From positions 1-64,000 of the forward strand of contig NZ_JAOBWS010000011.1 in assembly GCF_025245835.1 (NCBI RefSeq): DNA of 64,000 nucleotides. Reading direction: 5' to 3'. Origin of the DNA: Rheinheimera sp. 4Y26. Lineage in GTDB: Bacteria; Pseudomonadota; Gammaproteobacteria; Enterobacterales; Alteromonadaceae. The notes under the pieces were generated by a model. The model made no database searches. It saw only the letters and a program-made list of their open reading frames with translations, and had not been told where the DNA came from. Numbering within the stretch: the stretch's first letter is position 1; each line of letters begins with the position of its first letter. A program made the position numbers and the translations under genes. This document shows positions 1 to 53,797 of this stretch, piece by piece.

Positions 1-70
1 CAGAAGTGAAACGCAGCTGCGACGATGGTAGTGTGGCAGATGCCATGCGAGAGTAGTACACCGCCAGGCT
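1..70 (+). rRNA. rrf: 5S ribosomal RNA, 3' part
   Basis: The first 70 bases match the 3' portion of gammaproteobacterial 5S rRNA: AGAAGTGAAACGC, GATGGTAGTGTGG and CCATGCGAGAGTAGTACA in the usual order, closing with CGCCAGGC. The 5' half lies before the window, so an rRNA operon on the plus strand ends here. A strong intrinsic terminator follows at once. The exact 3' end of the mature RNA cannot be fixed from sequence alone. Confidence 0.93.
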
Positions 71-82
71 CCCAATACAAAA

Positions 83-110
83 GAACCCCGCTCAGTGAGC
101 GGGGTTTTTT
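83..110 (+). terminator. rRNA operon intrinsic terminator T1
   Basis: The stem CCCCGCTC/GAGCGGGG with a three-base loop is followed by TTTTTT. It lies 12 bases after the 5S end and fits a Rho-independent terminator for the rRNA operon. Confidence 0.92.
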
Positions 111-142
111 GTATTCTGAATCCGGCGGTTTACTCCGCGCAG

Positions 143-236
143 AGTAGTACAGTGACGCTGGGGTTTCGAAACGCAAACAGTTTTGCGTTTCGCCAGCGGA
201 GCAATCCCGATCTCTGCGAGGGATATGAAGGCTCCC
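143..236 (+). repeat. Structured 5S-tail-like repeat, unit 1
   Basis: The unit begins with AGTAGTACAGTGA, like the 5S tail GAGTAGTACA, and ends with GGCTCCC, like the 5S 3' end. Between these sits a long hairpin: outer arm CGCTGG/CCAGCG, a five-base 5' bulge, an 11-bp inner arm and a four-base loop. A second hairpin follows with outer pairing GGAGC/GCTCC and inner ATCCC/GGGAT. Compared with units 2-4 the arms change on both sides so that pairing is kept. Confidence 0.8.
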
Positions 237-246
237 AATAAAGCCA

Positions 247-275
247 AAGGGCCCAGTCTAACGACTGGGCCTTTT
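247..275 (+). terminator. Intrinsic terminator T2
   Basis: The stem GGGCCCAGTC/GACTGGGCC with loop TAAC is followed by TTTT. It directly follows repeat unit 1 and recurs at 660-688. Confidence 0.85.
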
Positions 276-278
276 GCA

Positions 279-341
279 TTTTACGTCCTGTAAAATGTCC
301 TTCGGACCGGCTACGCCGTCCAAATCCGCTCCTGCGGATTT
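279..341 (+). repeat. Run of short inverted repeats, copy 1
   Basis: Several small hairpins lie back to back: TTTTAC/GTAAAA (279-295), a GGACCGGC/GCCGTCC-like pair around 304-320, and AAATCCGC/GCGGATTT (322-341). The run is repeated exactly at 692-754. No reading frame or T-run explains it. Confidence 0.7.
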
Positions 342-393
342 AGTGCTTTATGTGGCCTAGCGGTCTATTGCCCGAGCAGGGCATTCCCATGCG

Positions 394-486
394 AGTAGTA
401 CAGTGAAGCCGGGAATTAAGAACGCAACCAATGTTGCGTTCTGCCGGCTGAACGCCCTGAGCTCTGCGAAGGGCATCAAGGCTCCC
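394..486 (+). repeat. Structured 5S-tail-like repeat, unit 2
   Basis: Same plan as unit 1: AGTAGTACAGTGA, outer arm AGCCGG/CCGGCT, bulge, inner arm AAGAACGCAAC with its near-complement, then GCCCT/AGGGC and GGCTCCC. The sequence just before it (CCCATGCGAGTAGTACA) matches 5S rRNA, and 352-393 may be a badly decayed 5S 5' part. Confidence 0.75.
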
Positions 487-495
487 AATACAAAA

Positions 496-523
496 GAACC
501 CCGCTCAGTGAGCGGGGTTTTTT
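496..523 (+). terminator. Second copy of terminator T1
   Basis: Identical to the rRNA terminator at 83-110: an eight-pair GC-rich stem followed by TTTTTT. Confidence 0.85.
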
Positions 524-555
524 GTATTCTGAATCCGGCGGTTTACTCCGCGTAG

Positions 556-649
556 AGTAGTACAGTGACGTCGGGATTTAAGAACGCAACCAATGTTGCG
601 TTCTTCCGACGGAACAATCCCGAGCTCTGCGAGGGATATCAAGGCTCCC
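556..649 (+). repeat. Structured 5S-tail-like repeat, unit 3
   Basis: Counterpart of unit 1 in the second duplication copy. The outer arm is CGTCGG/CCGACG and the inner arm is AAGAACGCAAC/GTTGCGTTCTT with loop CAAT. The second hairpin uses ATCCC/GGGAT. Length is 94 bases, as in unit 1, although the arms differ in sequence. Confidence 0.78.
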
Positions 650-659
650 AATACAGCCA

Positions 660-688
660 AAGGGCCCAGTCTAACGACTGGGCCTTTT
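660..688 (+). terminator. Second copy of terminator T2
   Basis: Exact repeat of the stem-loop and T-run at 247-275. Confidence 0.82.
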
Positions 689-691
689 GCA

Positions 692-754
692 TTTTACGTC
701 CTGTAAAATGTCCTTCGGACCGGCTACGCCGTCCAAATCCGCTCCTGCGGATTT
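692..754 (+). repeat. Run of short inverted repeats, copy 2
   Basis: Exact repeat of 279-341. It is followed at about 766-805 by sequence faintly like a decayed 5S 5' part (CTGGCGG, ATTGGTC, CCCATGCGA), then by further hairpins such as AAAAACGT/AACGTTTTT near 807-830. Confidence 0.65.
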
Positions 755-882
755 AGTGCTTTATGGCATTCTGGCGGAATATTGGTCGAACTTGGCATAC
801 CCATGCGACAAAAACGTCTGGAACGTTTTTGGACCGCTTCAGCGGGCCGCGAAGCGGCGAACCCCATGGGCGGGGTGAGCAA

Positions 883-1110
883 AGTAGTACAGTGAAGACC
901 GAAATAGAGAACACCAACAGTTTGGTGTTGTCCGGTCTGAACGCCCTGAGCTCTGCGAAGGGGACGGGATTTAAGAGCGCAACCAATGTTGCGTTCTTCC
1001 GGCTGAACGCCCCGAGCTCTGCGAAGGGCATCAAGGCTCCCTGATACCGCCACCAGTTGACTGCCTTCCGGCTGAACGCCCCGGGCTTTGCGAATGCCAT
1101 CAAAGCTCCC
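883..1110 (+). repeat. Structured 5S-tail-like repeats, unit 4 and two partial units
   Basis: Unit 4 begins at 883 with AGTAGTACAGTGA and has outer arm AGACCG/CGGTCT and inner arm AGAACACCAA with a near-complement. It runs at about 962 into a partial unit (963-1041) that keeps the GCGCAACCAATGTTGCG arm and the GGCTCCC end. A remnant at 1067-1110 keeps only CGGCTGAACGCC and a degenerate tail. The array decays away from the rRNA operon. Confidence 0.7.
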
Positions 1111-53391: not shown

Positions 53392-53467
53392 GCGGGCATA
53401 GCTCAGTTGGTAGAGCGCTACCTTGCCAAGGTCGAGGTCACGAGTTCGAATCTCGTTGCCCGCTCCA
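53392..53467 (+). tRNA. tRNA-Gly (GCC), copy 1
   Basis: A 76-base tRNA with CCA. Acceptor GCGGGCA/TGCCCGC; anticodon loop TTGCCAA (GCC); normal T arm GTTCGAATC. Confidence 0.97.
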
Positions 53468-53488
53468 AATCACAAAATGAAGACAGAT

Positions 53489-53562
53489 GGCGGGTTGGCA
53501 GAGTGGCCATGCAGCGGATTGCAAATCCGTCCACCTCGGTTCGACTCCGGGACCCGCCTCCA
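53489..53562 (+). tRNA. tRNA-Cys (GCA)
   Basis: A 74-base tRNA with CCA. Acceptor GGCGGGT/ACCCGCC; anticodon GCA at 53521-53523 within CGGATTGCAAATCCG. Confidence 0.97.
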
Positions 53563-53589
53563 TTTAGTGAGCACAAAAGAAAGTTGTCT

Positions 53590-53676
53590 GCCCGGGTGGT
53601 GAAATCGGTAGACACAAGGGATTTAAAATCCCTCGCTCGAAAGGGCGTGCCGGTTCAAGTCCGGCCCCGGGCACCA
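53590..53676 (+). tRNA. tRNA-Leu (UAA)
   Basis: An 87-base class II tRNA with CCA. Acceptor GCCCGGG/CCCGGGC; anticodon loop TTTAAAA (TAA); long variable arm. Confidence 0.97.
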
Positions 53677-53721
53677 TTTACTGACCTGCATAGCAGAAGT
53701 AAAAGTGACAAATCAGAATTT

Positions 53722-53797
53722 GCGGGCATAGCTCAGTTGGTAGAGCGCTACCTTGCCAAGGTCGAGGTCACGAGTTCGAATCTCGTTGCCCGCTCCA
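53722..53797 (+). tRNA. tRNA-Gly (GCC), copy 2
   Basis: Identical over all 76 bases to the copy at 53392, pointing to a recent duplication or gene conversion within the cluster. Confidence 0.97.

Follow-up and report, generated by a model that had tools for sequence, protein, structure and literature searches.

The window analyzed here comprises bases 1-64,000 of contig C2 of Rheinheimera sp. 4Y26 (G000; a draft of 4.08 Mb in 33 contigs) and begins within a 5S rRNA gene, behind which lies a chain of hairpin-forming units whose stems differ from copy to copy and still pair. This raises the question of what these units are, RNA kept by selection, decaying 5S copies, or mobile DNA, and of how a palindrome can change and remain self-complementary. 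In what follows, other G-numbers denote further genomes, C-numbers contigs, and L-numbers loci.

Organization of the tract behind the 5S gene

The rrn operons of this genome are collapsed onto other contigs of the draft. Because the 5S gene in the window is cut by the contig start, its match scores under the Rfam gathering threshold (Table 1); the remaining part is identical to the 3' part of the 5S gene on C23, the only one of this genome over the cut-off. In the tract, the RF00001 match is confined to bases 1-69, and the Rfam scan at gathering gives no match there. A sub-threshold match to Trp_leader on terminator T1 and its spacer, from a permissive Rfam scan, was taken as chance.

Table 1 Features of the tract at the start of the window, in window coordinates.
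Feature	Position	Strand	Basis or detail
Intact 5S rRNA gene, 3' part (model positions 47-120)	1..69	+	Rfam scan 27.8 bits; gathering 38
Terminator T1 behind 5S, AACCCCGCTCA/TGAGCGGGGTTTTTT	80..110; copy 493-523	+	Inverted repeats
5S fragment (5S 93-106), left of unit 1	137..151	+	Local alignment to own 5S
Unit 1	152..224	+	GTGA 152-155; hairpin 1 156-198; GAGC 199-202; hairpin 2 204-224
5S 3' tail AGGCTCCCAATA (5S 112-115 + flank), right of unit 1	229..240; copies 479-490, 642-653	+	
Terminator T2, GGCCCAGTC/GACTGGGCC	245..276; copy 658-689	+	Terminator scan
Three-hairpin cassette, T2 to next 5S fragment	278..352; copy 691-765	+	Fold z -3.98
5S-like leader without the middle of 5S	358..402; related leader 770-808	+	Gapped alignment to own 5S
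5S fragments left of units 2, 3, 4	387-402, 550-564, 883-891	+	0, 2, 22 of 500 shuffles as good
Unit 2	403..474	+	GTGA 403-406; hairpin 1 407-449; GAAC 450-453; hairpin 2 454-474
Unit 3	565..637	+	GTGA 565-568; hairpin 1 569-611; GAAC 612-615; hairpin 2 617-637
Second hairpin-cassette type, between 5S-like CCCATGCGA and AGTAGTACA	805..880	+	Read directly
Unit 4	892..963	+	GTGA 892-895; hairpin 1 896-938; GAAC 939-942; imperfect hairpin 2 943-963
Unit 5, partial, without GTGA, fused to unit 4	962..1041	+	GGCTCCC at its end (1035)
Unit 6, worn remnant, right half of a unit	1042..1110	+	Direct-repeat copy 1034-1110, 61%

Direct reading and a repeat search place four full and two partial units at 139-1110, in agreement with a sequence-only reading of this DNA that had counted at least four. 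A full unit begins with a GYGA tag and continues with hairpin 1, whose 43 nt in the window units include a 5-nt bulge (162-166 in unit 1, on the 5' side), then with a GAAC or GAGC linker and a hairpin 2 with a TCT loop, together about 70-75 bases. The common start described earlier, AGTAGTACAGTGA, is found at 143-155, 394-406, 556-568, and 883-895, while the GGCTCCC described for the far end comes directly after units 1-3 (230, 480, and 643) but not after unit 4, which runs into unit 5 instead. The outer arms CGCTGG/CCAGCG, AGCCGG/CCGGCT, CGTCGG/CCGACG, and AGACCG/CGGTCT read as given there, with pairing kept; the alternative second hairpins, ATCCC/GGGAT and GCCCT/AGGGC, do so as well, except that unit 4 is imperfect on the 3' side (AGGGG). 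GTGA/GAAC and GA/GA look, from their letters, like tandem G-A pairs. For searches we built a covariance model of the unit, R1, and because all four full window units belong to its training alignment, their matches (147-226, 93.8 bits; 398-476, 98.1 bits; 560-639, 104.7 bits; 887-965, 83.8 bits; window E values 4e-20 to 1e-25) are not independent evidence. Unit 5, also seen as a direct repeat, matches R1 at 962-1031 with 56.4 bits (model 6-80); unit 6 ends in AGCTCCC near 1110 and is not matched by R1 even with E allowed up to 1.

The proposal that the units resemble a 5S 3' tail with about 65 bases of hairpin inserted is borne out, with an insert of about 70 bases. Units 1-3 are flanked by 5S sequence on both sides and replace 5S bases 107-111: the left flank corresponds to 5S 93-106 or 89-106 and the right flank to 5S 112-115 plus the 8 bases behind, and only 0-2 of 500 shuffles score as well (1 of 500 for the fragment left of unit 1). 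Unit 4 has a 5S flank on the left only. The tract follows the order 5S fragment, unit, 5S tail, terminator, and units 1-3 each end in a terminator; in 1-1400, there are 10 terminator-like sites against 2.1 expected.

Several further features of the tract can be described. T1 (60-120), T2 (245-276), and their copies look usable in both directions; for T1, the terminator scan places its sites on the minus strand (106-84 and 519-497). The cassette at 278-352 holds three short consecutive hairpins, and 225-352 is identical to its copy at 126 of 128 bases. The cassette at 805-880 has a fold z of only -1.81, with 10 of 200 shuffles equally good; modules like it, with a conserved loop (C-T/C/G-GGA type) and variable stems (AAAACGT, AAATCGT, AAATTGC, AATTGGC, and others), occur at rrn ends and elsewhere (L024, L025, L021, L163, L170). 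A tRNA cluster, Gly-Cys-Leu-Gly, lies at 53392-53797, with no unit nearby by R1.

Paired stem changes and exchange of hairpin 1

Units 1-4 fold as RNA with z scores of -3.23, -4.72, -5.06, and -4.01, and none of 200 dinucleotide shuffles is as good for any of them; both DNA strands of the unit fold. In an alignment of 29 copies from the own and related genomes (A1), with a consensus structure of 26 pairs, two-sided changes are observed at 19 pairs and 95.1% of cells are paired, compared with 31.3-44.0% when the partners are slid by 1-3 columns, so that the paired stem changes noticed in the window are real. Sliding the partners lowers the covariation score from 0.519 to 0.061-0.099, and shuffling lowers it to 0.187. 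All five measures on A1 beat 500 of 500 shuffles, a soft control because the copies are related; some are less extreme, such as the number of pairs with two-sided change, where 19 stands against a shuffle mean of 13.9 and none of the 500 shuffles reaches 19. The 147 distinct copies contain 23 different perfectly paired forms of stem 1, 24 of stem 2, and 19 of stem 3. The conserved parts are the GYGA tag (119 of 141 gap-free aligned copies; 6 further copies are gapped there), the loop of hairpin 1, and the hairpin 2 apex GC-TCT-GC.

How such changes arise can be followed within the window itself, in a 413-base tandem duplication whose 287-base copies, 66-352 and 479-765, are 93% identical by the repeat search. 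Between the copies, 15 of 56 bases differ in hairpin 1 with its tags and 4 of 231 in the remainder, which comprises hairpin 2 and the flanks (Fisher p 8.8e-9). Twelve of the 15 changes form six fully compensated pairs and the other three fall at unpaired or basal positions, leaving no broken pair. Moreover, C30 carries the hairpin 1 of unit 1 unchanged and C19 the hairpin 1 of unit 3; the inner hairpin of unit 2 recurs at C10, and C6 holds a chimaera of the unit 2 left arm and the unit 3 right arm with two broken pairs. Exchange of hairpins as whole blocks among rrn ends explains the stem changes, which slow compensation does not. Because hairpin 1 is replaced as a block between near-identical flanks, covariation alone does not point to RNA selection here. 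Of the two causes offered by the sequence-only reading, selection on RNA structure is not implied, and repeated gene conversion of structured DNA fits best.

Distribution across genomes and loci

The earlier reading had held that hits at this locus only would count against it. Instead, matches to R1 occur outside the locus in all 22 genus genomes, at least 1 to at least 25 per genome, with at most 150 candidates scored in each. A pattern scan of GTDB species genomes (own genome possibly excluded) returned 21 stretches in Rheinheimera, Alishewanella, Alkalimonas, Arsukibacterium, and two Gammaproteobacteria MAGs, and by DNA similarity the unit was recovered from 13 of 40 genomes, each belonging to Rheinheimera, and from none of 18 genomes of other genera. 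In the own genome there are 13 R1 matches. Nine lie in 5S-tail tracts at rrn ends, five of them on C2 and the others on C30, C6, C19, and C10, with two cut by contig ends; two more are on C32 near tRNA-Arg and two on C8. In other genomes of the genus, many copies lie in intergenic DNA of protein genes, often behind terminators. Since these dispersed copies exist, the element is not rrn-linked only, and of the earlier suggestion of an rrn-linked mobile hairpin, the mobile hairpin fits best and the restriction to rrn is refuted. By a crude scan, a same-strand terminator stands within 150 bases upstream of 33 of 89 dispersed copies and downstream of 12 of 89; the upstream count rules out that units always lie behind terminators. 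Among 75 distinct left flanks, selected for GYGA, 43 end in GG and 16 in ACA.

At two orthologous protein-gene loci, the core is found in some species and lacking in others. At the 3' end of rpoH it directly follows the terminator in G003, G010, and G019, whose RpoH proteins are 98-100% identical to one another, while the other 19 of 22 genomes show no core in the first 330 bases. Hairpin 2 of these cores reads CATTCG.. in G003 and G010, whose cores contain mispairs, and CATTTG../CAAATG in G019, a compensated change. The second locus, with TonB-receptor and ZIP genes, was matched in 12 genomes and readable in 11, of which four hold the core (G013, G017, G001, and G011) and seven do not. Here, the core sits in the loop of an outer hairpin, GTCGCAAC..GTTGCGAC; G004 has this hairpin with an empty loop where G017 holds the core, G011 has one empty and one filled outer hairpin, and six other genomes are without a filled one. 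On reading the two loci, no short target duplication shared by both was noticed, nor was a clean target-site duplication found across sites. We infer that presence and absence reflect insertion, and part of the pattern could be due to loss.

Beyond the genus, at E up to 0.001 per genome, with less than one false genome expected in each sample, R1 matches 8 further genomes of 295 in an order sample (10 including the own and G003) and 3 further genomes of 274 in a class sample (4 including the own). Because few candidates were scored per genome (at most 150 in the genus, 15 in the order, and 17 in the class), misses in these searches are not absences. Copies lie near a 5S or tRNA gene in 9 of the 11 matching genomes outside the genus: a 5S gene or 5S 3' part is in the locus in 6 of the 8 order genomes (L094, L095, L097, L098, L100, and L101; L096 and L099 have no 5S in the same fetched locus) and a tRNA in all three class genomes (tRNA-Ser, tRNA-Met, and tRNA-Pro). 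Five of the six 5S loci have, to the left of the unit, a piece of 5S that breaks off 12 bases short of the 5S end and, to its right, the 5S 3' tail; these matches are short and of modest score, and in 3 of 10 flank tests on five loci at least one of 200 shuffles does as well. At L227, the score of the tRNA-Ser tail equals that of its best shuffle (22 to 22). The unit of L094 has the opposite orientation, and relative to tRNA both orientations occur; L094, L227, L229, and L235 thereby rule out a constant orientation toward the stable RNA gene. G333 (L235, 2394-3700) carries seven tandem units, each after a tRNA-Met 5' half (bases 1-30), and beyond the intact tRNA-Met, reversed units precede tRNA-Met 3' tails. 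In G550 (L229), the unit lies between the copies of a 69-base repeat (97%) made up of a tRNA-Pro tail and a terminator; this repeat could be a tandem duplication just as well as a target-site duplication.

Origin of the units and relation to known elements

The reading that we favor, at a probability of about 0.55, is that the units are copies of a non-autonomous, REP-like miniature mobile DNA hairpin that has been shuffled among rrn ends by gene conversion. Such an element would enter DNA beside or inside other hairpin-forming sequence, namely 5S and tRNA gene ends, the loops of hairpin modules, and the stretch behind terminators, most often placing its GYGA end after GG. The chain of shortened 5S copies with units in the window would have expanded via tandem duplication, and recombination among rrn ends would swap hairpin 1 as a block, yielding stems that are different yet self-complementary. 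Folded single-stranded DNA is probably what is recognized.

Less supported than a mobile DNA hairpin, and on our estimate rather unlikely, is a possible functional noncoding RNA or RNA domain, transcribed by rrn readthrough or from its own start, in which selection keeps the hairpins, loops, and tandem G-A pairs (GTGA/GAAC, and GA..GA around GC-TCT-GC) and the stem letters drift. Strong covariation and the terminator at the end of each of the rrn units 1-3 speak for it, as does the fact that other families (L098, for example) keep both the TCT loop and the tandem GA. However, the units stand behind strong terminators, and no sigma-70-like promoter is found in 1-1400, where 0.9 would be expected by chance, a weak test. 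The block swap of hairpin 1 also argues against it, as do the gain-or-loss pattern at orthologous loci and the number of matches per genome, which are unlike one conserved RNA gene. Mispairs help little. Selection on the sense RNA should leave more G-T than A-C among them, and G-T does exceed A-C by 67 to 35 over all cells, with a weak excess among isolated mismatches (21 to 9, p 0.043 uncorrected), but by haplotype the counts are closer, 42 to 30 (three stems summed, no isolation filter). We dropped this excess as a test of strand or RNA selection, since the counts are too weak and not independent.

We give still less credit to an origin without any mobile element, in which tandem 5S copies decay, replication slippage and template switching at hairpins create and correct palindromes, and gene conversion then spreads these among rrn ends. 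The 5S remnants, the tandem duplication, the block swaps, and the chimaeras agree with such decay, and template switching is known to perfect quasi-palindromes. The flanks of the window units are indeed 5S pieces, as in 5S rRNA pseudogenes behind rrn operons, but the core itself is not 5S and is also present without 5S. Local 5S decay cannot give the dispersed copies, because these sit behind protein-gene terminators, with the same GYGA tag, loop, and hairpin 2, and in tRNA contexts of other families.

Least probable is that the host produces the units as a by-product when stable-RNA genes duplicate, as in the tyrT/RtT case, with repeated duplication of a tRNA or 5S tail along with a structured stretch that has a function of its own: the repeated tRNA-Tyr tail behind structured RtT stretches in E. 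coli K-12 and the bracketing 69-base repeat of G550 resemble it, but copies away from stable RNA genes are left unexplained and R1 does not detect RtT (6.3 bits and E 0.53 as the best on tyrT). We therefore rejected RtT as a homologue and kept it as an analogue. RtT and the present unit have an architecture in common, a structured unit between repeated stable-RNA tails (5S and tRNA tails here), but RtT is tied to tRNA-Tyr at the tyrT locus examined, whereas our unit is also dispersed and matches it neither in sequence nor in structure; RF00391 has no match in the window at gathering, nor up to E 1 in 1-1300. In the E. coli K-12 tyrT locus (L237), each RtT stretch starts with GGGGAAGGAT and closes with a repeat of the tRNA-Tyr tail, AATCCTTCCCCCACCACCA; the two can pair as an outer stem around inner hairpins.

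For the favored mobile DNA hairpin, the closest parallels are REPs, which, as far as the available parts of two papers describe them, carry a 5' GTAG, form palindromes with bulges, mosaics, and alternative complementary stems, and lie mostly behind genes (PMC8266576, PMC3733652). The likeness to these REP, BIME, and REPtron descriptions extends to the short extragenic palindrome, 5' tetranucleotide, stem bulge, stem sub-families, and mosaics, and hairpin 1 matches a REP palindrome (20-50 nt, often bulged). The differences are that here two unlike palindromes stand in fixed order and the same orientation, that the core lies within 5S and tRNA ends and hairpin loops, and that no RAYT was found in the own genome, G003, or G010. 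The tag is also another one, since REPs carry GTAG or a variant (GYAG, GYRG, GTRG, GTMG) at the palindrome foot: among the 12 commonest tag types in the aligned copies, GTAG does not occur, with GYGA instead. IS200/IS605 elements have a guide tetranucleotide 5' of the left and right palindromes, according to the part of the source available (PMC8266576). Miniature elements derived from them, which have a palindrome near either end and a fixed target motif 5' of the left end, may resemble the unit in the two palindromes and possible guide tetranucleotides, and insertion 3' of GG (GG|GYGA) is possible, with GYGA standing at the foot of the first palindrome; they differ in that three carrier genomes here have no Y1 transposase, and in the unit the stems vary freely and the ends are putative. 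The unit thus cannot be assigned to REP or IS200/IS605 because it lacks GTAG, because no Y1 is present in the own genome, G003, or G010, and because no copies occur at seven RAYT-like loci.

As to candidate mobilizers, PF01797 (Y1 transposase) is present in 19 of 22 genus genomes and missing from the carriers G000, G003, and G010, which may have had it in the past; its absence there led us to reject RAYT/IS200, and R1 finds no copy in the seven RAYT-like loci L132-L138 of other genomes. PF00078 (RVT_1) is present in 10 of 22 and absent in 12 of 22, including G000 and G003, so that a reverse transcriptase, whether of a group IIC intron or another RT-mobilized element, was rejected as well. In G006:C5 (L130), one unit has a Y1 fragment next to it, which was taken as chance, with no such pair at the similar unit of G006:C23 as far as read. 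Separately, the RAYT-like Y1 proteins of L132-L138 (about 250-310 aa, from other Rheinheimera genomes) have at their flanks, by eye, another repeat marked by GGGGTCAGGTCTTGCC / GGGGTCAGATC.. motifs, which also occurs behind rpoH in G004 and G008.

Other two-ended or hairpin systems can be compared as well. A classical MITE has terminal inverted repeats and a short target duplication; in the sequence of the unit, the two ends are not inverted repeats of each other. Integron attC sites are characterized by an IntI integrase and R'/R'' boxes, RYYYAAC/GTTRRRY; on reading the unit base, no such boxes were noticed. CIR of Caulobacter and Brucella, in the available part of its description, has two hairpin arms with a linker, conserved across genera (PMC2229807); the joined hairpin arms are alike, but the GANTC motif and the sequence are unlike the unit, by reading only. 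In the literature searched, outside of which most subscription papers lay, no published description of the element was found.

More tentatively, and to our mind doubtful, the mobile DNA hairpin may represent a hairpin-targeting class that enters folded single-stranded DNA where stem and loop meet (in 5S close to the 3' end, in the tRNA T-arm or anticodon arm in either orientation, and in module loops). It would be recognized by its shape and its GYGA foot, irrespective of stem sequence, and a putative enzyme would move it; modules nested in one another's loops would then build branched hairpin mosaics across Gammaproteobacteria, and RtT-like repeats behind stable RNA genes may stem from the same process. 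If true, this would point to a mobilizing enzyme still to be found and would bring the odd repeats that follow rRNA and tRNA genes under one explanation, the long-puzzling RtT of E. coli among them. Independently of that class, the 413-base duplication provides a precise internal control for how palindromes change yet stay self-complementary, and the loci of gain and loss are natural material for the same question. The window also holds a warning: textbook covariation, even at 19 of 26 pairs, can come from whole-hairpin swapping in repeats and is therefore no proof of a functional RNA.
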